From Antedon mediterranea (Eukaryota > Echinodermata > Crinoidea > Comatulida > Antedonidae), in assembly GCF_964355755.1 (NCBI RefSeq), contig NC_092679.1:6138001-6202000 (forward strand): a stretch of 64,000 nt of DNA, read 5' to 3'. The position numbers and the translations under genes were made by a program. Each line of letters opens with the position of its first letter. Within the stretch, counting starts at the first letter, position 1. Shown here piece by piece: positions 5,701 to 54,830 of the stretch. The notes beneath the pieces were generated by a model. That model was not told the origin of the DNA and searched no databases. It saw nothing but the letters and a program-made list of their open reading frames with translations.

Positions 5701-8700
5701 CATTGAGATCCAGCCACTGATTCCCACAGCATTGTCATTTTTTCAGTAATTTGCCTTTGGATTTATATATATATATATATTCCTTCACTTGCACTGATGA
5801 AGGGCTAATGTTGCCCGAAAGCTCTGCTAAGTTTTCTGGCTGTTTACTTTATCGTTTCGATTTAGCTTTTCGCTTTTTATTTTTGTATCTCCATTGAGAT
5901 CCAGCCACTGATACCCACAGCATTGTCATTTTTTTCAGTAATTTGCCTTTGGATTTATATATATATATATATATATAAATCCAAAGGAAAATAAAAGCGA
6001 AAAGCTAAATCAAAACGAGAAGTTAAACAGCCAGAAAAGTTAGCAGAGCTTTCGGGCAACACTAGCCCTTCATCAGTGCAAGTGAAGGAATTTGGATAAC
6101 GTCATAGTATAAAGCTGGCAAGTACTGCCTGGGTGGACAGGAAGAAATGAAATATAACAAATATTTATATATATATATGTATATATGTAAGTGTAATATG
6201 TGCCCCAATGTAGGGGTTCTCTTGTGTTTTTGTTATATTGTATTATTATTTATTTGTTTGAGTCATGTTTACTAAATGTAAAATAGTGACCACGTTTAAT
6301 GTAATCAGAAGGATACATAAAATATATATAAACCAAATTATTATTATCACAGCTGTAAGTTACTGATGTGGTATTTATATGACTGTTCTGTTGTTTTAGT
6401 GGTTTTAGTAAACAATGTATGCATTGCATTTTCTTTACCCTATTTGGTCTAATATAATCCCACGGGGCACAACCATAAATATTGGTAACAATTGTGAACA
6501 TCATTGTTTCAGGGTTTTTTGTGTAGAATTGTAAAAGTTAATTTGTTTTAATGAATAAAACTACTTGAAAACCATTTAATGGTTGTAGCCATTTAAAAAA
6601 AAAGTTTTAAAAAATTTAATAATTTGGGGTTTTTTTTCCAGCCAAACCAAAAATAATACGTAAACCAAGAGCCCAGGTGGTGAAAGAAGACAGTGATCTG
6701 TATTCTCACTGTGAAGCTGAGGGGATGCCAACTCCTACAATCACATGGTTCACAAACAATGTTGATGTTATGGAAGTAAGTCATTTGTCATTATTTACCG
6801 TATAAGTAACTAAAGCTTCGGTTCTTACTTAGAACTCTTTTACGTTATGTATCTTGATAGACTACCATCACCACTGTTGGTTTGTGTAAATGCTTTTAGT
6901 CCTCTAATATGATCATTAACAATAAAGCATTTTTCGTTGTATTTCTTAGTCGGCCTCTGTCGTAATTATTTACCTATCCGTCAAGAAACTTCACTTGCTT
7001 ATTTCAAAGCTGCTATAAAAACTCAACTTTTTAACTCATTACTATTTTTCTTAGTTTCCTGGCATTTTAATTAAAAGTGTATTGAGGCTATTGCATAATT
7101 ATTATTAAAGTACAAACTTATTTTTACTTTTATTTAGACGGATAAAAGTGACAGAACAACTGTGTTTGCAAACGGCACACTTCACATCTCCAAGATGAAG
7201 CTTTCAGATTCTTCTTTCTATATGTGCAAGGCTATGTCTTCTGGTGGATTTGCACAAGCGTTGGTTAACATAACAGTACAATGTAAGATTCATGGTCTTT
7301 TAAATGCGTTATATTATTGGGATCCAGATCCTGGTGTGAGGATGGGGTGGGGTTGATTCACTTAACCCATAAACGATAAGCAATAACTTTAAACATTGTC
7401 AGATTTTGGTAATTGTATTGTTATTATCTGCGACTATATTTTTTATGCATAATTCATCAAGCATGATCTTAGTCATTCTATCACGATCAATAAATTTCGA
7501 ACTGCCAGCCACCATAAATAAAGAACCCGCATGCTGTTGTAAATTAAATTCTTGTTAAAGTATGTAGCTAGTGGTATGGCTTCAAAGACAATAACTAAAC
7601 CTGTCCATAAATCACAACGCTAAACCACATCAATCACGTGTAAGTTTACATTAACTACATCATTTCGCCAACAACATCTAAGTTGGATGCCCTATCAGTA
7701 ATTTTAACTCTGCTGCGTTGTGACACGCAGCAATAAAATATTTTTTGTAATTCCTAACTACTATCGGACAAAAAAAGGTGTTGTTTTGACGTTTGGTTCA
7801 CATCTGGACCCGTAGACACAATGGGAGTGATTGAGTTTACCAATCACAAGCGACATTCATATGATCCATTGCGTCGTGATTGGTTGCAATTACTTGCAAG
7901 CTGCTTGCATTGTGTTCAATTAGGAACCTCGCTTTTGATCCTTGTGAAATAAATTTGTGTTTCAAAAAATAACTTTGTAGATGTAATAATTGTTGAGAAT
8001 TATTAAAATTCTTTTGCAGCAACTTTGAAATTTACCCACTGGCAAAAATGGAAACAAATGGAAGTTGGAGATCCAAATCGGCTAACTTGCTCCGTCCGAG
8101 GCGCTACAGATATCCAAATATTGTGGCAAAGAGAGGGTGGAAATTTACCAGAAAATGTGCGACAGGATATGAATACTCTGTTTTTTGATAACCCAAAACA
8201 ATCTGACTCTGGAAATTACAAATGTACTGCAATGAGCATGTTAGGTGAAATCATTAACAACACAATTAACGTATCAGTTATGAGTAAGTTTTTCCGGAAT
8301 AATTATTATTATTATTATTAATACAATTTTAAATAATGTACTACAGAAGACTCTTTTGATAGATTATTGATATTAGGGACGAAAGTGTCCCCTTAAGATA
8401 GAGTTCTGCGGTGCTGACGTCATGACAATATTGGCCCTCATCTGTTTTCAAGGAAATTGTTAACCTTAATAGAGGTGTCCCAAAGGAGGTATTCTTTAAC
8501 ATGATGTTGTAATTGCATCAATTGAATCGTAGCTTATCAATGATAAGAATTCCATAATTGTTGTTCGAAATATTCTAATATTTACATAACAAACCCAATT
8601 TGAATTTGGTTTTGATACCATAATTCAATCAATCTATTTTGTTTTTTCCAGTTCAACCTAAATTTTCAATATTACCTGGCAACATAACTGGCTACTTAGG

Positions 8701-10517
8701 TCGTAAGTTAATAGTTCACTGCCAAGCATCTGGTGATCCAGAACCAAAAATAACGTGGCTAGATATTCCTAAAGACGCAATGACGTATCCAAACGGCACA
8801 GTAATATTTCCCCGCATTAGTCAGAGTGATGAAGGAGTGTACCAATGCGTTGCTGGTAGTAGGGCAGGGTTAAACACAACTTTTTTAAATATATCCGTAT
8901 CAAGTGAGTTTTCATTTTTTAAATGTTAAGGTATTTTAAGATTATCGTAATAGACCTGCACCAATTTTACTTTGGGACCTAAGTTTTTGGTTCCTAATTA
9001 GAATTAATAATTTTACCATAAATGGAAGTCTGCATTTAAGGACAATGTCATTCTGTATCAGATTTCAAGTTTATTTCCTAACTGTAATTTCTTAATTGTT
9101 AAAAGGAACACCGCCACCAGTTGAAGGACTGATGACTCGAACCATTGCAATTGCTGTCGGCTGCGCAGTGGGTTACATCTTCCTCGTTGTTGGACTCATG
9201 TGTTACTGCCGTCATCGTCGACTAAAGATGAGCAAGGAAGATGAGGACAAAGAAAAAACAAATGGCATGCTGCCAAACCATGAACCGAAAGAGTCAAATG
9301 GTCAGGTTGTGAAAGATGGTGCCATGGTGATGAATCCTGTCTACCCAGGCAGGCGTGCAAGTTACGATAATCTCCTCTTTCCAAAACATGACCTGCAGAA
9401 GCTGTCTGTATTAGGAAAAGGAAAGTTCGGCGAAGTTTTTCTTGCTAGAGCCGTTGGCATCAAAGATGGAGAAGAAGTAACCACTGTTATCGTAAAATCA
9501 CTGACTGAGAAAGAGGAGAGCATTCAACTAGCATTTAGGAAGGAGCTTGATATGTTGAGTAAAGTTGACCATGACAATATTGTCAAGCTTCTAGGCATGT
9601 GTAGAGAAGGAGATATACAATTTATGATTACTGAATACTTAGATTGGGTAAGTTGCAAAGTTTTTCAAATTTGAGAAATTCTAATACTGTTGAAGTTTCT
9701 ATAAAAGTTAACACTTGGTTTAGAAGGTTTCGGTTTTATCCTCACACTGTAATGTCCTTTTGTTCAGATGACTACACAACTAGTAAGACTTATTATATGT
9801 TTCTGAGTGTGCCAGAATTACTTATCCGCATGATAGCTGCGTAATCTTGTGGCGTATCATGAAAAAGAAGTCGCTATTATTTATTGGTTGGTGTTCTGAA
9901 TTTTAGAAATGTAATTTTTTTTAAACATTTTGTCTGTTTAGGGAGATCTAAAGAACTATCTGATAGCAACTAAAGGAAAGAACGGTCACACAAACTCACC
10001 ACCACAACTGACCCTTACTCAGAAAATCGATGTCATCAACCAAATTGCCCAGGGAATGGAACATCTTGCCAATAATAGGTTCACTCATGGAGATCTCGCC
10101 GCTCACAACTGCCTTTTAAGTCCTTCCATGGAGATCAAGATCACAACCATCTCTGTATCTGAAGACCTTTTCCGCAGTGATTACCATGAGTACAACCAGC
10201 AGCTACTGCCAATCAGATGGATGGCACCAGAGGCCATTTATGAGAATCATTTCTCACCAAAGAGTGATGTATGGTCATTTGGTGTGGTCATTTGGGAGGT
10301 CTTTTCGGCTGGTGAATTGCCATATAAGGAAAAGGACAATGAAAGTGTTCTAAAGGCAATAGTTGATGGAGATTTAATGCTGGAGACTCCTCAAGGAACA
10401 CCAGAAGAGGTGGAAATCTTGATGCACAGATGTTGGTCAAATTCACCAGCTGATCGACCATCATTTGGTGAGATCGTTTCAACGATTGGAGAGTTGCCAA
10501 CAGATAGTCAAATTTAG
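2756..10517 (+). CDS. PTK7: PTK7/off-track receptor pseudokinase, 5'-truncated by window edge
   Basis: Seven exons, all with AG/GT borders and compatible phases: 2756-3037, 6642-6775, 7138-7282, 8020-8283, 8652-8903, 9106-9647, 9942-10517 (stop TAG). They encode four Ig domains (exon 1; exons 2+3; exon 4; exon 5), each with paired Cys and a YxC motif and mostly phase 1-1 borders, then a membrane helix (AIAVGCAVGYIFLVVGLM), a short cytoplasmic linker and a kinase-like domain. The kinase shows GKGKFGEV, the beta-3 lysine in VIVKSL, HGDLAAHNC in the catalytic loop, RWMAPEA and SDVWSFGV, but TIS where DFG should be, so it lacks the metal-binding Asp. This is the PTK7 pattern (human has HKDLAARNC and ALG; from memory). 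Human PTK7 has seven Ig domains, so the signal peptide and about three Ig domains should lie upstream of the window. Known family role: Wnt/planar cell polarity co-receptor at the plasma membrane without kinase activity. The gene symbol is secure at family level. Confidence 0.93.
3061..3224. mobile_element. Family A MITE, copy 1
   Basis: Starts CTGTCTACACTATCAAAC and ends with the inverted GTTTAATAGTGTAGACAGAG, giving about 25-bp terminal inverted repeats, inside a PTK7 intron. The interior has TGTGATGTGCCC and repeated ATATGGTAGTGATAT blocks. About 160 bp, no coding capacity, so a non-autonomous DNA-transposon derivative. Confidence 0.85.
3569..3724. mobile_element. Family A MITE, copy 2
   Basis: Left end AAGCTCAGTCTAAACTATC and right end CAAACTAGTTTGTAGATAGAG; the internal ACCATATTTGGGCA block is repeated. 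It lies only about 350 bp from copy 1 in the same intron and carries the complementary arrangement of the interior. Confidence 0.8.
4456..4645. mobile_element. Family B element with CACTAG ends
   Basis: Begins GCGTGGTTGCCACTAGCGAC and ends GCATCGTGGGAACCA, which is the inverted form of the left end. The interior (GCGTAATCGC, TGATTTCACGCAGGC, AGAAGGGCATTT) matches the cluster at 15.6-17.8 kb. Short, non-coding. Confidence 0.75.
5362..5440 (-). mobile_element. Orphan Helitron-like 3' terminus
   Basis: Read on the minus strand it ends with GCGGATAACC, a hairpin (AACTTGTCC / GTGACAAGTT), five bases, then CTAG followed by T. This is the same architecture and nearly the same sequence as the 3' end of the 1.6-kb element at 30888-32499. 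No matching 5' end was seen nearby, so it is a truncated copy. Confidence 0.65.
5606..6092. repeat. Compound direct and inverted repeat with (TA)n
   Basis: A block of about 170 bp starting GATGAAGGGCTAATGTTGCC occurs twice in direct order (about 5606 and 5798) and once, partly, inverted (about 5976-6092, ending CAGTGCAAGTGAAGGAA). (TA)n runs separate the blocks at 5580, 5766 and 5955. The 5780-6092 part forms a large inverted repeat with the CCTTCACTTGCACTG ends. Likely a terminal-inverted-repeat element inserted into or generating TA repeats. Confidence 0.75.
6960..7070 (+). mobile_element. Short LINE (CR1/L2-like) 3' remnant
   Basis: One frame reads IRQETSLAYFKAAIKTQLFN, which resembles the extreme C-terminus of CR1/L2-type reverse transcriptase proteins (pattern: R..SLxxFKxxLKTxLF). 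It lies in the PTK7 intron before the exon at 7138. Very short, so family assignment is tentative. Confidence 0.4.
7283..8019 (+). other. PTK7 intron; nothing notable
   Basis: Intron between Ig exons. A short patch around 7840-7910 (ACCAATCACAAGCGAC, GTGATTGGTTGCAATT) resembles the centre of family B elements and may be a decayed copy. No coding signal seen. Confidence 0.6.
8284..8651 (+). other. PTK7 intron; nothing notable
   Basis: Short intron between the third and fourth visible Ig exons. AT-rich, with a decayed patch around 8390-8500 (GTGTCCCC, GAGGTGTCCC) of the kind left by pogo-like repeats elsewhere in the window. No coding signal. Confidence 0.5.
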
Positions 10518-36421: not shown

Positions 36422-39400
36422 ATGGCACATGGACAACAAGCAATGGTCCATCCTGAACTGATGATATCCTCTACAAATAGCTACGTTATCTCCGACAGAA
36501 CCGTATCATCTGCAACCGCTTCACCGAGTATTCTTTGCGTCGTCTGTGGCGATCAGGCAGCTGGGAAATATTTTGGAGCACTAATTTGCGAAGCTTGCAA
36601 GGTGCGTCTCAGAAACCCAACTCCCATATCATTTTGAGTTGTTTAAGGAATGATTATGATAAATTGCATAAACAGCTCTAATGTAGTAACTGCTATAGAA
36701 TAAGTTTGATATGATCCCTTATCAAAGTTCGTTGGCATTTCTCGTAGTCATATTATTCCACAGACTTTAAAACTCACTGGTGCGAATCTAAATTTTTACA
36801 TTATTGTAGATTCTTCGTAGTCAATAGAAATACTGCACATCTTAAAATGCAGCCATAAATCCATTGTTTGTTATCCATTGTTTGTTTGATTTTCGAATTA
36901 TGTCTTCAACAAAAATTGCGTTTATATATACCTCCCTGGGATACCTGGTACAGTAATCACTCATTCTGCCAATATGGATTTAGCAGAGCTGACCAGGCAT
37001 TTGGCAGGGTACATGGGGACTGTGTGTACCTTTACTATAAACAACAAATTCTATGCAAACATGCTACTTTTGCACATAATTTAAAATTTGTATACAGTGA
37101 CGTTTTTGTGAACATCTAAATTCGAAAATTCGGTTTTCTGGCGCTAGCAGAATGTTCAGGGTGACGGTTTTGTTCACACAACCGAATGTATCAGACATTT
37201 CAAATTTGTTTTGCTCTTCCTATCTGGTTTTATAGGCCTAAAGCTCTGTCTGCACTATCAAATTAGTTTAGCAAAAAAGTGTGATGTGCCTTAATATGGT
37301 GGTGATATGCCCAATTATGCTAATAATATGACATCATCGTGTCCATATATGGGCACATCACATTTTTTTTTTCACATAAAGTTTGATATAGTAGACAGGA
37401 CTTTAAACATAATCACACATTTTTTCCGTGGTTTTTTGGCATTTTCAGTCTCAAAATATTCTTGGGTGAGACTGAAACCATGAATGAATCACATGATCAT
37501 GAATCACATGATCATGAATCACATGATCATGAGTCACATGATCATGAGTCACGGCATGATCATGAGTCACGGCATGATCATGAGTCATAGAACCTGATGG
37601 GTTCTGCCATCAATTCAACACTCACACACATTAATAATCTTGAATTTCTCATTTTGGCCATGAATTATAACTAGACACATGCCCTTACTTATTTTCTGTA
37701 ACTGAATGATAGTACTATAAATATTTACAAGATAATACACAATGAATAATAAAGTCATCACTTGTCTTTTCTATGTTATTATATTCCTACCCTCTAATAT
37801 ATATTGTTTTACCATATGTTAATCTAAATTCATGAAAAAATTCACTTGCATATTATTATAAGTGGATAAATTGTTTTAATTTTAGCTTTCTAATGATGAC
37901 AATGCTCCTTCTTTGTGATACCTAGTTGAACATTAAAGATACTGTACCTCCAAAACATGGAAAGCAAGAGTAATTTAGGTTACAACCTCTGCCAAGAGTT
38001 AAAAAGAGAAAAAGGATCAAGAATCGTGATAAAGATCCATCTTGTTGTAGTTGAACTATGGCCTAAAATTAGTAAAATAATAAAAAGTCGTCCTGATTTG
38101 GGATTCTGGTACGGATTTCCTCCAAAATTGAATGGAGTCTTCCATGACCACATATCTGTTGTTTAAAACACATACACACAGACATAAAAATATATCCTAC
38201 AGTAGGCAGAGGTAATAAAAACTTTGAATTGGCCATTTCTTTAGTTGAATAAAGTTATTCACAACACCATTCCTGTCATGTCTACCACTGTGAGATTATT
38301 TTATTTATTTGACTGTTTTTTTCCAGAGCTTTTTTATTCGTAGTACAAAGAAAGGAGAGCCACAATTCAAATGCTCAAACAATAGACTTTGTACAATAAC
38401 GCCGACATCCAGGCTTCTGTGCCAGTGTTGTCGCTACCAAAAATGTTTAGAAGTTGGAATGTGTCGGAAAGGTATTAACTATTAAAAAAAAATCAATAAA
38501 CATTACATAAAAATAATAAATGAATTTAAAAAAAATGATACTAAGAGAGGATGCAACAAAATAAAAGGTGCATCTACTATAATTTAACTTTTATTGTCAG
38601 AAATTGCTATGGAAAATAAGTGAATTTAGTTTATATTTTCACTTTGTTTTGCCATATATTTTTAGTGAAACAGAATTGCAAGGAACCAGCAAATGACCAG
38701 ATTCTGTGTAAAGTCTGTAATGACGTGTCGTCTGGTATTCATTTTGGCGTTTATACATGTGAAGGGTGTAAAGTAAGTAATCTTTAGGGCCAAGTCGTCT
38801 CGTCGGTAGAAAATTAAACATGTATAATGAACTCAGTCTCAAGACGAATCTTGTCGGGATTCAACTCAGACAGCACTAACGTTTTGTCGGGCCTCGTCAT
38901 ACGATGCTGTCTGAGTTGGCCTTTAGGTAGATAAGTCTGTAACGATAGCGTTGATATAAGAATGAAGGTATTAAATGATGTAGTGGTGGTAATAATGATG
39001 ATAATTCAATTCAATGGTCTCTGAGCACCTTTTTTCCTTGCAGAAGTGTCTTTTCTAGAGATGTGCCATCTCTTCTATCAATATGTGATAGATATTTATG
39101 GTATAATGCTTAAGCTGCCACCAATCGGTGGAATAACAATATAAACAGAGAATAACTAGAAACTTGGAGAAAGTCTAATGCTAATCACACACGATTGAGT
39201 TCTGTATGGACAGAGCACTTAATGCCAGTTTCCTTGCAATCATAATAATAATGATTATTTTATTTGATGGTTAATAAAATCTTTTTTTCTGTAAATATCC
39301 TTTTAGGGTTTTTATCGAAGAAGTTTACGAGACAGCAGTAATTACACATGTGTCGACAACAAACAATGTAGCATAACGCCCACGACGAGAAATGTTTGCC

Positions 39401-42400
39401 GTTATTGTCGGTTTCAAAAGTGTCTGGAAGTTGGCATGTCACGCTCAGGTAAACCTTACGACATCCGTAGTGCTACTGTAGAACCGCTTTTTAAGCCTGG
39501 TTCCCACTAGGATGCAACGCAAGGATGTAAACGCAACGCAAGCGTGTTGACCAATGACAAGCAACAGTTTGAATAATCCATCGCTTGTGATTGGTCAACT
39601 TACTTACGTTGCGTTACGTCTTTGTGTCGTATCTCTAGTGGGAACCAAGCATAAGGGAACATCTTGTTTTATAATCTGAATTCAATAAAGTGTCCACTTA
39701 ACAGGGACTTTTCATCAATACTTCTAAGAATGCTAGATGATCAAACCCAGTACTGTTTGCTTTTACATTTGGGGAATTACCTCGCATGGAAATATCTTCA
39801 ATTTCTTTCAATGTATTTCCACAATATTATAACATACATACACAATGACATAATGTTTAATAAGTTTAATAAATAAAATTTCATATAAATACAATGAAAA
39901 TAGTTGGTGGAAAGTCTTTCAGTTCGACCCACCCAAGATATACATTTAAATAAAAAAAAAAAAAAAAAAAAGATAACATAAATCAATAATACATAAAAGA
40001 AAACAAAGCTACAATTTCTATTTAAACAACTTTATCCTATCTTAACTGGTCTTATGAAATATATGAAATTTATCATTCGTCGTATCTAGAAAGTAAATAG
40101 TTCTTTTATACTAATTCTAATATTAAGTTTTAATATCTTCATGGATTGAATTCCATAATTTAGCTCCTTGGTATTTAATAAAGTTCTTGATCAAATTATT
40201 TGTATATTTAGGTAAAAGATAATCATTTGAATTGCGTGTATTTTCACTATTTAGTTGAGTATCTTGTTAGGCATTCTCCCATATAATAATGGACTTTCGA
40301 TTTTCTACGACTGAACCATGTCATTTTAGTTCATTTTGCGCATGCAGGAATAGGGGGATGTGTATCCTCAATCCTCACCTCAACATAGGTTTGATGGTTT
40401 TTAGGTGCAGGTGACGACCTATGACATGTCAATTGACCTGACCTAGGTTGTCATCAGTCCTTGCTTGTCGCAAATCAAAATGTTTACTATCATGTTCACC
40501 ATGTTTGTAAGAAACTTAGTCAGAACCAGGATTTATTTGTGTCATGTTAAATGCTATTTATAGATAAAATGTTAGTAAAGATTACTCAAGTAAGGATCAA
40601 AATTCTTGTTTACTTCTGTCCCTGGTTTAGATAAAAATAGATTCTATTAATAAATGGTTACAGATACTAATATTACAAATGAAAATTAATCGGTTTAAAA
40701 ATTGTGGTATCTTTTTCCCAAGGTAGTAATATCTGTTTCCAGAAATAGAAAACGTAATCTAAAGAAGTTATCTTTTTCCGTTGAACCTAGATAAAGAAAC
40801 TGTAGAGCACTTTATTTTTGTGACCCCCTTATTTTGTGACATTTTTGTTTTATTTTTCATAATTTTGATTATTTGATTTGTAGCATCCAGAATTGTTTAA
40901 ATGGTGGCGTGCTAACATATAGTATAGATATCAAAAACATTAAGCCTTGTCATATCACTACCATATTTGGGCATATCACTACCATATTTGGACACATCAC
41001 TATCATATTTGGACACATCACTATCATATTTGGACAGATCACACTTTTTTGTCAAACTAGTTTGACAGAGCTTTAGAACCCCTATAAAATGGACACTTCA
41101 GAACCTAACAAAGTGTTCCTTTTATGAGAGGTTTTCCCCAATAGTTGTTGGCTGCAGTGTTAAAACATATATTTCTTCCTGTTCATTCCACATGTCGCCT
41201 TGATAGGGTTTCCCCCAGAGTAGCGGTGCCCCAAAGAAGGGGCGTTACTGTCAAAAGAGGAGGCACAACAACTCTAGCTGGATCCACCCCTGTAATGTAT
41301 TAAATCATACAGATTATTGTCCAGATAATGATTTCTAGGTAAAAATCCTTCAGTCAGTGGTCAATTGATCCTTTAGCTATACATGTCATTGACCAAGCTT
41401 TTCAGTAATTTGTTAAGCTTACTATATATTTATATTAACCTTGTGACCTATTTCTATACCACACCAACTATGAATCGTAGAAAAAGTTAGCTACATTGGT
41501 TACAATATTATTTAACTGCATCTAGTTGAATAATTTACATAACTGCATCTAGTTCTGAAAAGAAATGTTAAGTTTCTTGATGAGGTCAATATGGTTGTTT
41601 TGTGAACATAAAAAAACCAATAAACAATGGATTTATTTTATTCTTTTTTAGGTATCAAATTAGGCCGGCACCAGAAATATGACACCAATTTGTATACTGG
41701 GAGCCGGGACCTTCAGCCAGGTGTAGTTAGCAACGTCTCTGTAATTAAAAAAGGTAGGACGATTCCAGTACCAAGACTGGAAAGTTACTCCCAAGAAGAT
41801 GCCGATGATCTGGAGATATACCTTGGAGACACATTCCTTGTGGATTTGCCAGGTTTCGGCAATTATTATGGAGAATATACATCACAACCGTACAGTATCT
41901 ATGACAATGATCTTTCGGTTTTCAACACCTTGTCTGATCCCATCCCCTTACACCATCAGGATATGTATAACAGGAATTATCCTAGTAAAAGGTGTGGTGG
42001 TACACAAATGGCACCCATTTTAGGTGGATTGAACAGTGGGGATTTTCATAATCAAGTAATGCCGTGTCAAAGTTCACAAAGCTATTTGGGTGAGTTAGCC
42101 AGCCACACACAAAACCGTGCTAATGGGTACATTAGCTTAGAAAACAGTCCATCGACAATGCGTAAAACTCTAAACCATCGAGCAGTGCATAGTAGCACGC
42201 CACCGCCATCATTGCAGAATTCACACCAGAATTCAACAATACCTTATTCTTCGCAACCAGAACAAGTGAGCCTTACAACGTCTACAGCATATTACGATCC
42301 ATTTGATCCTGCTTATCTTATTTGTGAGAAGCGAGTTAAAGAAAACTCAGGAGATAACCAGGTAGTACCAAGTGGATGTGAAAATGAACTTAGAAAAGGA

Positions 42401-45400
42401 TTAGAAAAGGGCCAATCATCGTTTGACGATGTCGTACCTACTGCCGTACCTCCTCACAAACTAGCTACAAACAAGATACTAAAAGAAGAATACACACCAA
42501 GCACAACTTTTGCAAACAATACCACTTCGTTTTACAAACAAAAATCAATAAAAAAAGACATCGATAGTAGTCCTGAGAGTTATACTTCTCATGACAGTCC
42601 AGGAAGTAAACAGGAATATGAGGTGGAAGTTGAGAAGAATTGTGCATATATTAGTTTTATACGCCTTCGTTTACACGGAAGTAAAAAAACAGATGAGATA
42701 CTAAGCCCAGGAATGGAAGAGATGCGAAAACAACGGCTGTTGAAATTAGATGCGTTATCGATGGATACCGATATGTTTGACGTCTCCAAAGCCTTTGAAG
42801 ATCTTTCTATTACGTTTGAAAATCTAGAAAAATCGCCTGAGCATCGAAAAGCTACACAAATAGTAACATATTTTTTATTTTTGTTTGGATATATTTTAAA
42901 ATTTAACTTTCCAGCTGATGTTTAAACACTGGTGGTTGTATGGCAATTAATTTCAGAGCTAGCTCAGTTATAATATGCAGAATAATTTGGTTACTTATTG
43001 ACAATAAGCCTCTGTATTAAAATATGACTATAATACGAATTATGATTCAAGAAACAATGGACCTTCCATGGGTTAGCCATGTATAATTCTACATTTTCCA
43101 AGAAATGGTAAAGGCCAGTTTACACAGACGAGCAGTAACGGTATTTATTTATTTTATTTTATGTCTTTAGGCAATGTGGCCAAGGATTACCAATAGTGAA
43201 TTAATCACTGTCCTATCAGATAGGTGGTAATCCCCCTGATACAGAGGCTATTGTGTGAACCAGTTCACTGGGGTAACCCCCTACTCTTTTTCGAATAATG
43301 AACTGGGTTCTTTAAAGTACACACAGGTTATTACTGTGTACACTGGACCTACGGTTTATAGTCCTTATCCGAGAAGACTTGTTCCACCACCAGAACTAGG
43401 AGCGAGTCGGCCTCGAACCCTTGCCGATGTTGTTGGCTCTTTAGGTACGGTAAACGGCGCCCCTGCCTTAACCGCCTTTAGGTACGGTAAACGGCGCCCC
43501 TGCCTTAACCGGTAAGAGGTAATTGGAAAAAAAAAAAATAGAATCCATGTTATTTCTTATGCCCATTTACACAAAACACGGAGCGGTTAAGTGATAACCC
43601 ACTCATGATAGATACAGATTCTATGTGGGCTCAAGCTACATGCTTTACCGCTTACCGTTGCTGCTGGTCTGTGTAGATTGGCCTTACGATGGACAGGCAG
43701 AAAAAAACAAATCTTAAATCTAACTTTACAGCATGCCAAGGTCGGGCTTTACTTGCGTTGAGTACTTGAGTCATATTTTCTTTGCTGGTTTTGTAGAATT
43801 GTGTCATAACTTGTCTTTTTACTTTTATCTTGACAGCTGTCGCAGTTTGTCGGTAAGCCTGATCCAACTCGCCATGAATGGAAACTTTTCCAGCAACGAT
43901 TGTCTAAGATGATTGCCTCTTCAATTATATTTGCAAAGAAAATTCCTGGTAATTTTTTAAAATCATGTTAAAATTAAAGAACTTACTTGTCAGTTGGATA
44001 GCCGAGTGGTTAGGACACTTGACTGTCGTACAGATAGACCCGGGTTCAATGCCCGACAACTCCCAGTTCACTCAGCTGTAAAATGAGTACCTGGTTGAAA
44101 ATACTAGGGAGAAAAAAGGCGGCGTGGAAAGGAACTGGCCACCCTACCACATAATGCCGAGGCTTAGTACAATGAGCTCCTAACAGCTCATTCCCCTACG
44201 TTCAGAGAACACGGGACTCACCTTTACCTTTACTTGTCAGTACCTTGTAGACTTGCTGGTGTGCTTAACTGAAAGCAGTGTGCTCAAGCACTAAAGCTCT
44301 GTCTACACTATCAAACTTTATGTGACAAAAAAAATGTGCCTAATATGGAAGTGATGCGCAAATACATCACATTTTTTTGTCACATAAACTTTGATATTTT
44401 AGACAGCTTTAGATCTTTACTACGGAAATTCTGCCCAATGACATATCCATATTCAGATGCACCGATGCCTATTCAGGGGACATCCCTATTGAAAGGATAA
44501 TTTGCTGGGTTACTAGGTTTCCCCTCAATAAATATTCTACAGATACAGTTAAACTGTATTTCAACCTTCACATACAAAGTACGAACAAATATTATTTGGC
44601 CTAAAATGAGAATTCCATCTAATACTGTAATAGAAACGTGTTCAAGACGCACTATGCAAAATGGAAGAAGAAAGCTTTGTGGTAAAATGCCCCATTACAT
44701 TACATTGTGAAAACGATGTTGCTAATAATAATACAGTCAACTTTCCCAATACTGGATACCTTTGGGCTGGCCAAATATGTCTGATTTTCAAGAAAGTCTG
44801 GTATTCAGAATGTTTTTTTAATATTCTGGTTTTGGGAGAATTTCCAGTTTTCAGAGAGCCTACTATATAAGCTAATACACAAACAAATACTGTTAGTACA
44901 CATCTTGATTTGTAAGCTACAATACTGTACATATTTTTTAAAAGCTATTCATATACATTGATTATGATTGCATTATGAAATATTTTTAAGTTGTTATGTG
45001 ACTGCCACAAATAGCGCTCACAAATAGTGTTTGCTTACCCAAATTATTATCATATTTCTGTTTTAATTTCATTTGTTTATAAATAAAGAAAAGGTCACAT
45101 TTCTGGGTGCTTCTAATATTCACTCACTTCTTCTCATTGATTTTGTATAAAGCCAATAATCCACTTGGTCGATGCTTTCATACAAGTGGGATAATATATA
45201 AGTAATAAAAGACTGTATATAATTCACTAATATAATGGGATTTTTACAGTTATATGGTAGCACTGTAACTATACAAAGGTATTGTGCATATAGCACATAA
45301 ACAAGCACGAATGTGCGATAAGCTGTAATGACGTCATAAGACCGGATGTAATGTCACATACACATCAATAACCTCGCTACCAAATACGGCTATACGGTAC

Positions 45401-47236
45401 CATCTTCGAGACGTGATATTGCTGCATCTATAGCTTTGAGGACATGTTCCTGTAGTATATTCATGAGAAATCCCAGCTCAATACTACAACGAATAGGGGA
45501 GGAGTAGTACTTTAAAAATCGTGTCCAGATGGAAGAAGAAGAAGAGGAGGAGAAGATGAGAGAGTACTAGACTCGGGTACACCGAGTAAAAACACCATTA
45601 TTTTTATTTGGAAAGTCAAGGTTCAAGTCTAACTATCATTCCTAGTTTGTTTTATAATCCAAAAAAACATTTTTGAAAATATTTCTATTAATATAATCAA
45701 ACAAACAAGCCTTAAGCGTTATCTTTAAACATTTTTTTTTTTTTTTTGTAATCAATTTTCGCATTAACAATTTTTTTCATTTGATACAGGCTTCAAAAAC
45801 ATCGAAGTTAGCGACAAAATGGTTCTTATCAAATCCTGTACGTTCTTGATGATTTTGACTCAGCTGTCGTGGAAAAATGATGCCAAGTTTGACTGGTTTG
45901 TAGACACGTTTCTCACCGTCGACACTTTACGTGTATTCACCGCTGGAATGGAAGCAGAGACGAGAAAATTCAGAGAGGACATTGGGAACGCTAAACTAGA
46001 TAGTATAGAAACCGCTTTAATGATGGTACTCGTTGTGTTAAATCCAGGTAGTTATTGTCTTGTTGGATCCAAGTTGGTGGTGCTTGGAACGTGCGCTTCC
46101 ATTTTTGACAGCTAAAATGAAATTATGAAATTATTGATGTATACTTTTATATTTTCCAACAGCGAGAAACTCACCAATTACAGGATGGATTAACTATTTT
46201 ATAATTTATCATGCTTATAAACTATAAGTCTATTTTGAGGCTTAGGGAGTGGAGCTGAAAGAGTTGTGAGTTACAACCCTAGCACTAGGTCAAGATTAAA
46301 CCCTAAACTTTGGGATTGGAAGGCAAGCACGTTAACCACCAACCGCTACATTATATGTTAGCTCTCCCCGTTTGACAAATCCTTGATCCCTGCTTGTTTT
46401 TATTTCAGCATTACAATTTTATTGTATTAATAATGATTATATATTTACATACTTCTTTTTTTTTTCTAGATATTCCAAATCTGGTGAATCCAATCATTGT
46501 GTTGGATTTGCACTCAAGATTCAAAGAAATTCTCAAGAAATATTGCACTGGTATGTAAATCATTCTTAATTTATGCATCCAAAAATGTTGTTGCCACTAT
46601 TACCATAACCTCTGACCTCAAATATCAATCCTAATTATCAAGCGTAGAATGGTTGTGGTCTACAATAATGATTTCAGGCTATTTATCTGAAGGGTGTGGG
46701 TACAAATCCCACCCATACAACAACATGCCATTTCACTGCATTTTCATGCATACCACGTGCTGTATTCAATTTCCATTACTCTTTTACATCATCTACCAAA
46801 ACTCTGTAGTTTACACACACCAGGTCGGACACCACACAGAACCTGGGTGCCTAGGTAAACACTGATAATAAGGGGTACATTGTTGATTTTATTGCATACT
46901 TGGAATTAGAATTATATGGAACAATTAGGTGTCCATATTGTGTAGTTTATTTAAGGGCTATGCAGTTAAACATGTAGTTACTGCAGTAAAACATGTAGTT
47001 ACTGCAGTAAAACATGTAGTTACTGCAGTAGGTGGATAATACATCATACAATAAATTTTAATTTTGTGTTTTATATAGAAAAATCGCAGAACCTTGATAG
47101 CTACTATAGAATTCTGAGATTTGTCCCATACCTGTACAACGTTGAAATCATACACAAAGAATGCGTACGCAGTGGCCACGTTCTGATGCCTGATGTACAA
47201 TTACCTGCATTGTTTGCAGAGATTAACCTTTCATAA
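36422..47236 (+). CDS. Nuclear receptor with two tandem DNA-binding domains (2DBD-NR)
   Basis: Nine coding exons with compatible phases: 36422-36601, 38327-38471, 38666-38772, 39307-39448, 41652-42862, 43837-43948, 45790-46047, 46470-46550, 47079-47236 (stop TAA); 797 residues. DBD1 (about 39-108) has all eight zinc Cys with 13-, 5- and 9-residue spacings and P-box CEACKS; DBD2 (about 123-191) is also complete, with P-box CEGCKG. A 370-residue polar hinge rich in Ser/Thr/Asn follows, encoded by one 1.2-kb exon. The ligand-binding domain (about 560-797) shows the helix 3-5 signature ([20 protein letters not shown]) and ends with an AF-2-like helix ([10 protein letters not shown]). The CEACK-type first P-box with CEGCKG in the second is what is reported for the 2DBD receptor group first described in flatworms, molluscs and Daphnia. 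The first coding exon opens one base before the ATG, so a 5' untranslated exon must lie upstream; an upstream coding exon is not excluded. Donor of exon 5 (ATA|GTAACA) and acceptor of exon 6 are my least certain borders. Confidence 0.93.
37239..37405. mobile_element. Family A MITE, copy 6, in receptor intron 1
   Basis: AAAGCTCTGTCTGCACTATC and GTTTGATATAGTAGACAGGA ends, in the intron that splits the first DNA-binding domain. Interior complete. Confidence 0.9.
37481..37589 (+). repeat. 15-18-bp minisatellite in receptor intron 1
   Basis: ATGAATCACATGATC repeats about six to seven times and drifts to ATGAGTCACGGCATGATC. Each unit contains the palindrome CATGATCATG. Confidence 0.9.
37933..38270. 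mobile_element. Disrupted family C element in receptor intron 1
   Basis: Begins ATTAAAGATACTGTACCTCC and AAACATGGAAAGCAAGAG, then departs from the family; AACTTTGAATTGGCCATTTC and GAATAAAGTTATTCACAAC near 38220-38265 return to it. The right terminus is missing. The 69-residue open frame in it is not a gene. Confidence 0.5.
39491..39655. mobile_element. Family B element in receptor intron 4
   Basis: CCTGGTTCCCACTAGGATGC at the left and CTAGTGGGAACCAAGC at the right; centre CCATCGCTTGTGATTGG. About 45 bp after the DBD2 3' splice donor. Confidence 0.9.
40941..41076. mobile_element. Family A MITE, copy 7, one end lost, interior expanded
   Basis: The right end CAAACTAGTTTGACAGAGC is present, the left end is missing. 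The interior block ACCATATTTGGACACATC is repeated four times, against one or two in other copies, showing internal expansion. Confidence 0.8.
41077..41640 (+). other. Receptor intron 4, repeat-free part
   Basis: AT-rich sequence leading to the acceptor TTCTTTTTTAG before 41652. Decayed pogo-like patches near 41080-41130. Nothing else recognised. Confidence 0.45.
43190..43515 (-). mobile_element. tRNA-derived SINE (type 2), in receptor intron 5
   Basis: On the minus strand the head carries GGTTAAGGCAGGGGCG and a B-box-like AGGGTTCGAGGCC, followed by a body with GAACAAGTCTTCTCGG and ACTATAAACCGTAGG. The body matches the minus-strand SINE at 60950-61190. A 34-bp stretch of the head (TAGGTACGGTAAACGGCG...) is duplicated in tandem at 43443-43511. 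Confidence 0.7.
43995..44229 (+). mobile_element. Full-length tRNA-derived SINE with target duplication
   Basis: A-box-like TAGCCGAGTGGTTAGG and B-box-like GGGTTCAATGCC sit about 40 bp apart as in a tRNA head, followed by an unrelated body and a short ACCTTT tail. The 12-bp direct repeat TTACTTGTCAGT flanks it at 43983-43994 and 44230-44241. Inserted in receptor intron 6, 45 bp after the splice donor. It is not a functional tRNA: the cloverleaf does not close cleanly and the unit continues past it. Confidence 0.9.
44292..44411. mobile_element. Family A MITE, copy 8, internally deleted
   Basis: AAAGCTCTGTCTACACTATC and the inverse TTTGATATTTTAGACAGC; interior shortened to TGTGCCTAATATGG and CACATTTTTTTGTCACA. 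In receptor intron 6. Confidence 0.85.
44731..44872. mobile_element. Pogo/Tigger-like MITE remnant
   Basis: ATACAGTCAACTTTCCCAAT at the left, GTTTTCAGAGAGCCTACTAT at the right, with CTTTGGGCTGGCCAAATATG inside. This is the undamaged form of the sequence that gave rise to the 34642 minisatellite. The overlapping 69- and 96-residue frames are not genes. Confidence 0.65.
44873..45780 (+). other. Receptor intron 6, remainder
   Basis: AT-rich; a GAAGAAGAAGAGGAGGAG purine run at 45532-45555. Nothing else recognised before the acceptor at 45789. Confidence 0.5.
46165..46372 (-). mobile_element. SINE type 3, in receptor intron 7
   Basis: Minus-strand head GGTTGGTGGTTAACGTGC (A-box-like) and GGGTTTAATCTT (B-box-like), then CTTTCAGCTCCACTCCC. 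The last motif recurs in plus orientation at 60830-60860, and the 46165-46230 segment (TTACAGGATGGATTA...) recurs inverted at 61190-61255. So the same family sits in the receptor intron and in the downstream gene's intron. Confidence 0.6.
46968..47030 (+). repeat. 21-bp tandem repeat, three copies
   Basis: AAACATGTAGTTACTGCAGT plus A, three identical copies, 48 bp before the last receptor exon. CTGCAG is palindromic within each unit. Confidence 0.95.
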
Positions 47237-47571: not shown

Positions 47572-47577
47572 AATAAA
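47572..47577 (+). terminator. Polyadenylation signal of the receptor gene
   Basis: AATAAA 336 bp after the receptor stop codon, the first canonical hexamer downstream of it that I found. Confidence 0.55.
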
Positions 47578-50996: not shown

Positions 50997-53287
50997 CATC
51001 TTTAGGTAAACCAAATAATATATTTAAGCATGACATTTCAGGTTTAGTGACATCTGGATGCCAAAGGTCAACCATAAATACTGCTCTTGGCTCATCTGAC
51101 CCACAATGCTTTGCTTCATGACAGAATGAGTCATCAAATAATAAACATTGTCCTTGTCTCCATTGTTCTTTTATACCATCCACTTTTAGGTAGCAATTTG
51201 GCGGTGTCAGAATACCTAGAAAAGATTCATTTTATTATACATTACTACAGTGTAGCTATTAAGCTTGGTTCCCACTAGAAACGCAACGCAAGTGAGTTGA
51301 CCAATTAAACGCCACTTTTTGAATAATCCATCGCTTGTGATTGGTCAAATCACTTGCGGTGCGTCGCTAGTGGGCGGTATCAGAATACCTAGAAAAGATT
51401 CATTTTATTATACATTAATACAGTGTAGCTATTAAGCTTGGTTCCCACTAGAACGTAACGCAAGGACGTAAACGCAACTCAAGCGTTTTAACCAATGACA
51501 AGCGAAGTTATAGACAGTTAGCAATCACAAGCGAATAAGCCATCGCTTGTGATTGGTCAATTCATTTGCGTTGCGTTGCGTCGCTAGTGGGAACCACGCT
51601 TTAAGCTTGATTCCCACTAGAAACGCAACGCAAGTGAGTTGACCAATTACAAGCCACTGTTTGAATAATCCATCGCTTGTGATTGGTCAAATCACTTGCG
51701 GTGCGTCGCTAGTAGGAACCAAGCTTTAACGTGTGTGCCTAATATTGGTTAAAATAACCATAGTGAGGCATTTAATGAATAGGCAACCTGCCTTAAAATG
51801 TGATATTAAATGCCTATAGTTCGGTGAAATTATTCATGATTTATCTAAATATTGGTTCTTTTTTTTTAATAGGTGATATGGTCACCTTATTATTATTCAT
51901 GAAATTTGTGATTCTCTTCCATGAATAAACAACATATTTATTTCAATTTTCTATTCTAGATTCAGGAATCTGGTTTTTTAAAAAGCCTGCTACCACCCGT
52001 ATCACAAGCCTGTGATAATTATTAATTTTTTTATAGTAATTGAAACACATGTACGAGTAGCAGATATCGGTAAAATATATTTATATTGTTAATGTATTAT
52101 GCAATTAATTCAATTGAAACATATATGTTAGTCATATGGAGTTACTATTACTAGTACAGTCTTTGTTGAGCGGCCACCTCCCATTAAGTGATCACCTCTC
52201 GTAAGCGGCCACTTTTCCCGGTCCCAAGGGTTGCCGCTTACGAGGGTTTCAGCTGTAGATGATTCTGCATATTTACCTAGATGACATCGAATTCTGACAT
52301 TGCATGGCCCAAAATGTTCAGTTATATGCGTTCCAGGCTCAAGCACTGAAAATGCTGCGTTTCCAAAAGCGTTTTCTTTTATAAATTTTCTTAAACCATT
52401 CTCTAATATTTTGGTAATTCGTGGGCATCTGGTACAGTTCTGTGGTACCTTCACGCCTTGGTTATATAGATGAAACACATACCAATTACCAGTCGGTACA
52501 GAATTACTTAACCAACCAGACACGTTACCATCCTGCAATGCATTAAACACCTTTAAAAAAAGACAGAAAATGTGATACACGTACATTTTATATGGCAAAC
52601 TTGCTGTGCAAGTCTTTATTTTGTTGTTTCTTTATATGTAGTCGGCCAGTGGGTGTTTTGTTTTTTCGGAAATAAGATTCCACTTCTAGTACACAGTCTA
52701 GTTACAAAGAATAGCTAAATTACAGTCGTGTCTAGAACCTAAACTAATGCTGCCAGGGCTCTAAGGAACTAATTTGTTTGGACACTACATCTTCTCACCT
52801 CTCCCACAATTTACTAGGGTCAAAACATAAATTGCAATTATAATATTGATAGAAATAAACACACCTCTAAGAATTCTTCATAAATATCAAGAAAATTATT
52901 AGCAATTAGTTGAGCATCAGGTGCTAAATCTGTGTCATCAGCTGCGTAAAATGGTTTAATAGGATCCAACTTTGGCAGAAAGAAAACATTTGGTTGCTGG
53001 TTTCTATTTGACCTTTCATTAGTACCAATAGCTTGTTCTATCCTGGATAAATCACCGTGAACTATTTGTGAAATTTCAATAAATTTGTCCGTTAATTGAT
53101 GGTCCAGTATTCTGTAATTCTGACAACGAACACAGTTTGGTGATGTACATTTTGAGTACAAGTCATCGTTTTTACTATCAACAGACTGGTTGTTCTTTTT
53201 GAATGCCTTCCGAAGGAGAATAGGGATTAAACAACAAGCACAGAGAGTCAGAAATAATGTAAGTGCATCATTCCAAGTTTCCACCAT
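50992..53287 (-). CDS. ASPHD2: Aspartate beta-hydroxylase domain protein (ASPHD type)
   Basis: Three exons on the minus strand: 52865-53287 (start ATG at 53287), 52277-52550 and 50992-51215 (stop TAA), all GT-AG and in phase; 306 residues. Residues 7-25 are a hydrophobic signal-anchor, so a type II membrane protein is predicted. CTSPNCVRC near residue 47 is shared with vertebrate ASPHD1/2. The C-terminal half is an aspartyl/asparaginyl beta-hydroxylase domain: EHFGP, RCHLG with His231, and LLFDDSFCHEA with His265 supply the two Fe-binding His, and the end FMVDLWHPDV is typical. Family knowledge: AspH uses a two-His facial site with 2-oxoglutarate; ASPHD substrates are not established. ASPHD1 versus ASPHD2 cannot be decided for an invertebrate copy; the symbol marks closest resemblance. 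Neighbour H1 lies 0.8 kb upstream on the same strand. Confidence 0.93.
51262..51730. mobile_element. Three family B elements in ASPHD intron 2
   Basis: Units of about 51266-51375, 51434-51600 and 51606-51728, each bounded by GGTTCCCACTAG (GATTCCCACTAG in the third) and CGTCGCTAGTGGG or CGTCGCTAGTAGG. The second has the GCGAATAAGCCATCGC centre, the first and third TTTGAATAATCCATCGC. A 75-bp stretch containing the exon 3 acceptor is duplicated between the first and second. Confidence 0.88.
51731..52276 (-). other. ASPHD intron 2, remainder
   Basis: AT-rich; GCGGCCACCTCCCATTAAG / GTAAGCGGCCACTTTTCCC patches at 52170-52240 look like a decayed pogo-like repeat next to the donor at 52276. No gene. 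Confidence 0.5.
52551..52864 (-). other. ASPHD intron 1
   Basis: 314-bp phase 0 intron, GTGTGT donor and TTTTTTTAAAG acceptor on the minus strand. No repeat recognised. Confidence 0.85.
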
Positions 53288-54046
53288 TAATGCAGATTTC
53301 TAAAAAATAAAAAGGGAATTTTCATGTACTGAATTGCTTACTAGTTTTAATTCTAAAACAGCAGGCGTTACATGTGACAGACTCTAGGGAAGGCCCGAGG
53401 CGTGCTACGGCTCATTTCATACTTTTACTTTTCTAACATCCTATTGAAAATTGGACCATTTATTGGTTGGGAGACAAAAGAAACCAATAAATATTCTGTT
53501 TCTTGACGGTGCCTACTTTTCTAATGGTCTACACCAAACATTGTTATTATCGTTCTGTCCTAGTTAGTGTACAGTACCAGTACTAAATACAGTTGTAAAA
53601 ATAGTCCCCCTCCCAGGGCCACGCCTTATAGTATACAAAACATTATAACATGCCTGGTATTGTTGGGAAGAGTATGGCCTGGCTGGCTAGCCCTGGCACT
53701 CTTTTTATTTACCCAGGAAAGAGCGATTGGATTTAGTCCTTACCGAATATCCACAAGATTTAACTTCACATTTACTAGAGGTCTAGATACTAACAATGCA
53801 TAGGCCTATTTGTGTGGGACGAAAAATCCGTCGGATCGTGAGGAGGGATGATTTTACCACTTTTTTGAGAGGAAAGAAGAGAATTTGAATGATGTGATGA
53901 TAGAAAACTTTTTCGATCTGGGCCTACGAATACGACGATATGATAAAAATAAAATTTATGAGGGCGCTAGACTAGGTTTATAGGACACAATTATTCAAAG
54001 AAAGACAACAAAAAAGTTTTGGAAGTTTGACATTTGGTTGCAAATC
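53288..54046. other. ASPHD upstream region and H1 downstream spacer
   Basis: Should hold the ASPHD promoter (reading leftward), but I see no clear TATA or initiator. The 78-residue plus-strand frame at 53567-53803 has no recognised features. Confidence 0.4.
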
Positions 54047-54114: not shown

Positions 54115-54744
54115 TTACTTCTTGCCAGCCTTCTTTCTGGGAGACTTCTTTCTTGGAGATTTTGGCCTTTTCTTCGAAGCTTTCTTTGTTGGCGATTTCT
54201 TTACAGCCTTCTTTGACTTTACAGCAGCCTTCTTAATCTTAGATTTAGGCTTTTTTGCTTTTTTCGGAGATTTAGCTTTCTTTGGTTTCTTACTTGTTGC
54301 TTTCTTTTTCTTGCTCTTTGTTTTTGGTTTCTTAGCTTTCTTTGCCTTCATTGCGGCTCTCTTTGCTGCTGCTTTCAGTTTTGCTTGTGCGGCCTTTTTC
54401 TTTGCCTTCTCTTTCTTTGCTTTGGCAGCAGCGTCGGTCTTTACAGTCTTTACGTTTAGCTTGAAGGAACCATTGGCACCAACTCCTTTGACGTGGACGA
54501 ACCTGCCGCTGTTAACGCCTCGCTTCAGTGCCAACTTTAGATGGGTATTCATAGAAGCATCGACCTTAAAATTGGCCTGGATGTATTTGGCGATAGCCTG
54601 ACGAGAAGAACCACCACGCTCTTTCAATGCTCCGATTGCGGCAGCAATCATTGCATTATACGTTGGATGAGCGGCCTTCTTTGGCTTTGCTCTTGCCTTG
54701 GCCTTCTTTGGACTCTTCTTTGGACTCTTTCTTGGTGAAGACAT
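54115..54744 (-). CDS. Linker histone H1, replication-dependent
   Basis: Intronless 209-residue protein. Residues 1-24 are basic with SPRK, SPKK and SPKK motifs in a row; about 25-97 form the winged-helix H1/H5 globular domain (AHPTYNAMIAAAIGALKERG, GSSRQAIAKYI, LKLALKRGV, GANGSFKLN); about 98-209 is a Lys/Ala tail with further SPKK, SPTK and SPRK motifs. Length and layout fit ordinary H1. A TATAAAT box lies about 80 bp upstream of the ATG, and the histone stem-loop follows the stop, so S-phase expression is expected. N-terminal SPKK repeats are known from sea urchin sperm H1 and could mean a germline-type variant, but the stem-loop alone does not decide that. No core histone gene lies nearby in the window. 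Long open frames on the opposite strand are shadows of the low-complexity tail. Confidence 0.97.
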   Translation of the reverse strand: MSSPRKSPKKSPKKAKARAKPKKAAHPTYNAMIAAAIGALKERGGSSRQAIAKYIQANFKVDASMNTHLKLALKRGVNSGRFVHVKGVGANGSFKLNVKTVKTDAAAKAKKEKAKKKAAQAKLKAAAKRAAMKAKKAKKPKTKSKKKKATSKKPKKAKSPKKAKKPKSKIKKAAVKSKKAVKKSPTKKASKKRPKSPRKKSPRKKAGKK

Positions 54745-54823
54745 TGCGAATACACTTTTGAAAGTTAAAACAAAACTTTTCGACGATGGAATTGCGAATA
54801 ATAAATTGTTTGCAATTCGCGCA

Positions 54824-54830
54824 ATTTATA
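54824..54830 (-). promoter_or_regulatory. TATA box of histone H1
   Basis: TATAAAT on the minus strand, about 80 bp 5' of the ATG. GGTCCGC at 54840-54846, 9 bp further upstream, resembles the GGTCC element that precedes the TATA box in many H4 genes; that resemblance is an inference. Confidence 0.75.

Follow-up and report, generated by a model that had tools for sequence, protein, structure and literature searches.

How did a single reading frame come to carry two complete nuclear receptor DNA-binding domains (DBDs) ahead of one ligand-binding domain (LBD), do both domains belong to the same protein, and from what kind of receptor did the extra one come? These questions are raised by a locus in the feather star Antedon mediterranea, lying within a window of 64 kb (the window being the whole stretch of DNA that was analysed). 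On the features of its sequence, we identify the gene as a group-B two-DBD nuclear receptor (2DBD-NRB). It is an expected member of a described subfamily, a kind of gene already known from sea stars, sea urchins and feather stars. The account that best explains the locus as a whole, and that we hold with good confidence, combines this identity with a proposed mode of action and with an origin of the first domain (DBD1) from an NR1-type exon cassette.

Structure of the gene

The gene occupies positions 36422-47236 of the window on the forward strand. Its nine exons give a spliced length of 2394 nt, or 797 codons plus a stop:

36422-36601, forward strand: exon 1, the first coding exon found; a short A/B region, then zinc finger 1 of DBD1, ending after CEACK in phase 0
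38327-38471, forward strand: exon 2; zinc finger 2 of DBD1, entered in phase 0 and left in phase 1
38666-38772, forward strand: exon 3; the greater part of the linker, then zinc finger 1 of DBD2, ending after CEGCK, entered in phase 1 and left in phase 0
39307-39448, forward strand: exon 4; zinc finger 2 of DBD2, entered in phase 0 and left in phase 1
41652-42862, forward strand: exon 5; G-box KLGRH (C-terminal extension), long hinge and start of the LBD
43837-43948, forward strand: exon 6; LBD, including FAKKIP, the first part of the Ti signature
45790-46047, forward strand: exon 7; LBD, with the remainder of the Ti signature and the region of helix 8
46470-46550, forward strand: exon 8; LBD, helix 9 region
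47079-47236, forward strand: exon 9; LBD helix 10/11 region, AF-2 core LFAEIN and stop
47572-47577, forward strand: AATAAA, possible polyadenylation signal of the 2DBD gene (motif match only)

Each of the eight introns has GT-AG ends and no stop interrupts the frame, in exact agreement with the nine-exon, 797-residue model of an earlier, sequence-only reading of this DNA. A splice acceptor, ttgttttctag, lies one base 5′ of the ATG in exon 1. One or more further 5′ exons are therefore likely upstream, and the protein may begin further N-terminally than in this model. Within intron 6, a tRNA-like stretch at 43990-44059 on the forward strand (ggatagccgagtggttagg ... gggttcaatgcc, read by eye) is possibly a tRNA-derived short repeat.

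Other genes share the window. At 2584-10514 on the forward strand lies a gene that we take to be a PTK7-type receptor, with exons that appear immunoglobulin-like by eye, then a transmembrane stretch, and after it a tyrosine-kinase domain (the frame 9096-9671 matches Pfam PK_Tyr_Ser-Thr). The reverse strand holds a linker histone H1 gene in a single open frame at 54118-54825 (PF00538) and an aspartyl/asparaginyl hydroxylase domain exon at 52131-52631 (PF05118), to which the open frame at 52841-53299, also on the reverse strand, may belong.

Domains of the predicted receptor

Pfam recognises two zf-C4 stretches in the 797-residue protein (E 2e-49 for the protein) and, C-terminal to both, one Hormone_recep LBD (E 8.8e-8). 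The spacing C-X2-C-X13-C-X2-C followed by C-X5-C-X9-C-X2-C occurs twice, at residues 39-59/76-95 and 123-143/159-178, placing all eight zinc-binding Cys of each DBD at canonical distances, with the P-box CEACKS in DBD1 and CEGCKG in DBD2. The two full tandem sets of Cys, and their P-boxes, are those that had been noticed by inspection. A pattern for the first finger plus its splice donor occurs at two places in the 64 kb window, both in this gene, and has no match in 3.7 Mb of first-order Markov sequence. The linker between the DBDs is 17 residues long, and DBD2 is followed by a five-residue pre-Grip, SRSGI, and then by the G-box KLGRH.

The LBD carries the Ti signature, split across the exon 6/7 junction, and ends in an AF-2 core that we read by eye as LFAEIN. 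With the Hormone_recep match, these features bear out the earlier description of an LBD with an intact AF-2-like end. The PDB sequences nearest to DBD2 are the DBDs of ROR, Rev-erb and RXR. Those nearest to the LBD are NR1 and RXR LBDs (LXR-beta at 5.1e-8, among the matches listed), aligned over about 140-185 residues among the 60 of 276 matches listed. In the alignment to LXR-beta the helix-8 Glu is present, and the Arg of DRP, which we take to be class II residue R62, is replaced by Ile. Structure prediction from single sequences gave a pLDDT of 33 for the DBD pair and 41 for the LBD. The 2DBD-NRs have been assigned to class I, which is marked by E50 and K/R93 and by the lack of class II residues (PMC10497141); the Ile would be in line with this.

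One receptor or several

The existence of colinear exons on one contig means that they are able to form one gene; it does not by itself place them in one mRNA. The sequence-only reading had held that nine exons on one contig rule out a chimeric transcript. This is sound as regards a chimeric cDNA, but it does not extend to a choice among exons within the mRNA.

As a matter of general caution, two adjacent receptor genes, the first without an LBD, might have been read as one. Given an exon 2/3 intron of 194 bases with phase 1 on both sides, and an architecture that is that of a described family, we consider this extremely improbable. A second possibility is that exons 1 and 3, or the pairs 1-2 and 3-4, are alternatives, giving a receptor with one DBD and a switchable P-box. 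Exons 2 and 3 together measure 252 nt, with phase 0 at either end, and exons 3 and 4 measure 249 nt, with phase 1 at either end. Both lengths are multiples of three, so that skipping either pair keeps the frame and could yield one-DBD isoforms. The probable paralogue described below, in which the first finger of DBD1 keeps four Cys and no intact second finger was found, could be seen in the same light. However, tandem exon duplication produces frame neutrality anyway, and exons 1-4 of the window gene all retain complete zinc-finger spacing. The linker, moreover, has a length published for 2DBD-NRs, and for some of these receptors full-length cDNAs exist (PMC10497141). We judge mutually alternative exons to be very unlikely, and prefer a single receptor bearing both DBDs.

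Assignment to the group-B two-DBD receptors

The window gene has several attributes published for 2DBD-NRBs. Its 17-residue linker lies within the 17-22 residues given for 2DBD-NRs, SRSGI and KLGRH correspond to a G-box KXGR(P/H) after a five-residue pre-Grip, and LFAEIN corresponds to an AF-2 core in which x, being E or K, precedes a hydrophobic residue and, next to that, a hydrophilic one (PMC10497141). For the AF-2 comparison, the group-B consensus was used as printed, with some of its signs missing, and its first two positions were taken as hydrophobic. The identity as a 2DBD-NR that was first proposed from inspection is therefore matched by the tandem C4 DBDs, the one LBD, the linker, the G-box and the form of the AF-2. 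The features of group A (2DBD-NRA), a first P-box CEACKK and a G-box RXGRQ(P/S), are replaced here by CEACKS and KLGRH.

Attention had been drawn to the Ser that ends the first P-box, in contrast to the Lys of the schistosome receptors. The contrast is correct, as CEACKK is given for flatworm, mollusc and Daphnia members in PMC1810520, which also supports Daphnia as a carrier of a 2DBD-NR; the word "Daphnia" has no occurrence in the main text of PMC10497141. The P-P module CEACKS-CEGCKG is reported for echinoderm 2DBD-NRBs only (Wu and LoVerde 2023, PMC10497141). As this module is the published echinoderm signature, Ser is the expected echinoderm state, and is neither an anomaly nor new. For six echinoderm species, one 2DBD-NR gene per species is listed (PMC10497141), the records including XM_033246620 and XM_033772834.

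The genome also looks echinoderm when three tektin exons are compared with PDB sequences. An exon whose best matches are named tektin-2 gives 238.5 bits to entry 8snb, a sea urchin sperm microtubule, against 146.7 for the best other entry, and a tektin-1 exon gives 91.1 against 64.9. A tektin-3 exon reaches 207 bits with other entries and 121 bits with 8snb, in which a tektin-3 chain seems to be absent. A COX1 search of the genome returned no match. Contigs C2-C11 measure 22-41 Mb and C1 has matches beyond 19 Mb, which makes at least eleven contigs of chromosome size, a number in keeping with feather stars; if numbering follows size, little sequence is left for the remaining seven.

Nuclear receptor DBDs across the genome

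A zf-C4 search of the 354 Mb genome returned at least 50 candidates, all of which were scored, 49 of them matching. Joined by exon, these represent at least 29 other DBDs (31 loci) in addition to the two of the window gene. Among the DBDs listed, two complete DBDs less than 10 kb apart on one strand occur in the window gene only. The next closest one-strand pair consists of two neighbouring NR1 DBDs on contig C2 (L025-L027), approximately 24 kb apart, which were considered as a second 2DBD gene and rejected, an LBD match lying between them. The listed DBDs include one that we take to be ERR-type, L020, and, in our reading, none of an oestrogen or steroid receptor. LBD matches at C7:19579112 and C3:14623887, both on the forward strand, have no listed DBD nearby. 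They could stem from receptors that lack a DBD, from exons lying further away, or from short exons that escaped the search.

Origin of the first DNA-binding domain

Both DBDs of the window gene are split by a phase-0 intron immediately after the P-box Lys. Among the other DBDs listed from this genome, the same intron is present in 12 of 15 from the NR1-type clade (18 rows of the DBD tree, support 96/94) and in none of the 14 others (Fisher p 1e-5, genes being treated as independent). The exceptions within the clade are L024, whose intron lies one base later, and L008 and L012, from which it is absent. DBD1 does not share the exon structure of the ERR-type L020, which is uninterrupted at the P-box. 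Its phase-0 intron thus favours an NR1-type over an ERR-like source, in agreement with the trees of Wu et al. 2007 (PMC1810520). Both DBDs are also followed, four residues behind GM, by a phase-1 donor; it is present in most of the DBDs compared and hence carries little information on origin.

The EAC-K P-box of DBD1 (EACKS against EACKA) could be read in favour of capture of this domain from an ERR-like (NR3) receptor. The free DBD tree places DBD1, at the end of a branch of 3.9, beside L020 (90/71) and outside the NR1-type clade, and L020 also provides its best alignment score (202.5, against 199.5 for DBD2). Nevertheless, a long-branch effect is likely, and when DBD1 is constrained into the NR1 clade the placement is not rejected (p-AU 0.59), with a likelihood 1.9 log units above that of the free search. 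The P-box-Lys intron, moreover, is lacking in L020 and present in DBD1, in the phase of NR1-clade DBDs. Joining DBD1 and DBD2 as a pair lowers the likelihood by 7.1 log units (p-AU 0.33). The residue tree alone thus does not decide the origin of DBD1, and the pair is neither shown nor rejected. Capture from an ERR-like receptor seems to us improbable, and we suggest that the gene acquired DBD1 as an NR1-type cassette of DBD exons that is neutral to the reading frame. Since exons 3+4 and 2+3 are frame-neutral, neither the gain nor the skipping of such a cassette need shift the frame.

A probable paralogue on the same contig

The contig of the window gene carries a second locus of interest 1.23 Mb away:

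C10:4943989-4947571, reverse strand: probable paralogue (loci L030, L032 and L033), with an intact DBD2 (P-box CEGCKC), a one-finger DBD1 and a very divergent LBD

The DBD at L030 and DBD2 of the window gene are reciprocal best matches by alignment score among 34 rows (255; 56% identity), and are paired in the DBD tree at 92/94, a value that the program did not count as showing the pair. By identity, DBD2 is nearer to L026/L025 (64%) and NR1D1 (59%) than to L030, and L026/L025 is also nearest to it by tree path. The exon after the L030 DBD starts GIKLGRRPKTD, which we compared with the start of the window gene's G-box exon. Upstream of L030, CFACGDTSEKISGGEVLCQFCL has C-X2-C-X13-C-X2-C spacing and is followed directly by a phase-0 GT donor, as in DBD1. 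The Cys-plus-donor pattern has three matches in 93 kb of real sequence (a scan of the window, L032, L033 and L034 that left out L030 itself), namely the two of the window gene and the first finger of the paralogue. The exon placed next preserves the phases, 0 to 1; it has a single Cys and lacks a second finger, and the 596 bases between hold no intact second finger of DBD1. Throughout, the placed exons match the window gene in phase, and the junction equivalent to that within the Ti signature of the window gene is crossed by a Ti-type signature, FAETISGFQDLANESKDELI; the Ti-type regular expression has no unspliced six-frame match in 186,386 positions.

Similarity is unevenly distributed along the paralogue. 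The alignment score of exon 1 was reached by 0 of 2000 shuffles, at a place picked beforehand from a tblastn match; within 19 kb, tblastn gave E 2.9 for this finger-1 exon and E 0.087 for the G-box exon. For exon 7, 8 of 2000 shuffles reached the score. Exons 2, 6 and 8 were no better than shuffles (596, 923 and 1233 of 2000, respectively) and were placed by splice sites and phase only. Pfam gave no nuclear-receptor match for the LBD pieces or the finger-1 exon, a search of PDB sequences gave none for the LBD pieces, and the paralogue was absent from a genome search with the window LBD (eight matches with E no higher than 0.1, of which five are exons of the window gene itself). A last LBD exon with AF-2 was not found by pattern over 19.8 kb or by alignment over 29.8 kb, nor was a start exon in the same 19.8 kb and 29.8 kb. 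From these comparisons, the L030 locus probably belongs to the family of the window gene, and the balance tips slightly towards its being a functional second gene.

A partial splicing switch might connect the two loci. Exon 1 or exon 3, joined to exon 4, would produce one-DBD receptors with CEACKG or CEGCKG beside the two-DBD form, and the paralogue would represent a later stage in which the second finger of DBD1 has decayed. If so, continued splicing to the intact second finger of DBD2 would explain why the finger-1 exon of the paralogue, with four Cys and a phase-0 donor, has been retained. We attach little probability to this scenario, and continue to regard the two-DBD receptor as the likely product of the window gene. 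An echinoderm relative with a broken DBD1 is not mentioned in the portions of PMC10497141, PMC1810520, PMC8363021 and PMC7827873 covered here. A gene of this kind might have escaped the one-per-species count of the survey (PMC10497141).

Proposed mode of action

In steroid-receptor structures, the bases of the half-site are contacted by Glu and Lys of the P-box and by two basic residues that follow a little further along. The residues predicted at these positions are E, K, R and R in DBD2 and E, K, I and R in DBD1. In the paralogue, DBD2 keeps E, K, R and R, and DBD1 has Q and L and no second finger. This pattern suggests that DBD2 is the main reader and that DBD1 makes a relaxed second contact, dispensable in the paralogue. 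With its NR1-type P-box EGCKG and G-box KLGRH, DBD2 would chiefly recognise an AGGTCA-like half-site. DBD1, with EACKS and Ile for a basic base-contacting residue, would make a second contact with this DNA, either weaker or tuned differently. In a published 2DBD-NR assay, no binding was seen to AGGTCA repeats of 1-6 spacing (PMC1810520), and the literature covered gives no DNA element for any 2DBD-NR.

We propose that the receptor acts as an LBD-mediated homodimer without RXR; Sm2DBD-alpha is reported to form homodimers and not RXR heterodimers (PMC1810520). Its AF-2 helix may recruit coactivators, either constitutively or under a ligand that is probably lipid-like. Unsaturated fatty acids have been proposed as ligands of a tapeworm 2DBD-NR (PMC6844482). 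Oyster 2DBD-delta, a group-B gene (PMC10497141), is among the receptors expressed at metamorphosis (PMC7827873).

Comparison with known receptors

Most of the new information at this locus comes from the P-box intron and the paralogue, and not from the P-box itself. The NR1-type intron offers a hint on the origin of the extra DBD that is independent of residue similarity, where DBD trees alone are undecided. One intact 2DBD receptor and a relative apparently without a working DBD1 also constitute a natural comparison within a single species.

The closest counterparts are the echinoderm 2DBD-NRBs, such as Aja2DBD-NRB of Anneissia japonica and Aru2DBD-NRB of Asterias rubens. Compared by published description, these have in common with the window gene the CEACKS-CEGCKG module, the group-B G-box, the linker length and the form of the AF-2 (PMC10497141). 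They are described as one gene per species, whereas here there is also a second probable member with a decayed DBD1. The 2DBD-NRBs of molluscs, annelids, brachiopods and phoronids (e.g. Cg2DBD-delta) have the same architecture and G-box class, but their P-P module is CLPCKS-CEGCKK (PMC10497141). The 2DBD-NRAs (schistosome 2DBD alpha, beta and gamma, and those of molluscs and amphioxus) likewise share the architecture and the second P-box CEGCKG, but differ in their first P-box, CEACKK, and their G-box, RXGRQ(P/S) (PMC10497141, PMC1810520). Finally, the NR1 receptors (ROR, Rev-erb, LXR and RAR) resemble DBD2 and the LBD, and the NR1-clade DBDs of this genome commonly have the P-box intron, yet NR1 receptors possess one DBD where the window gene has two.
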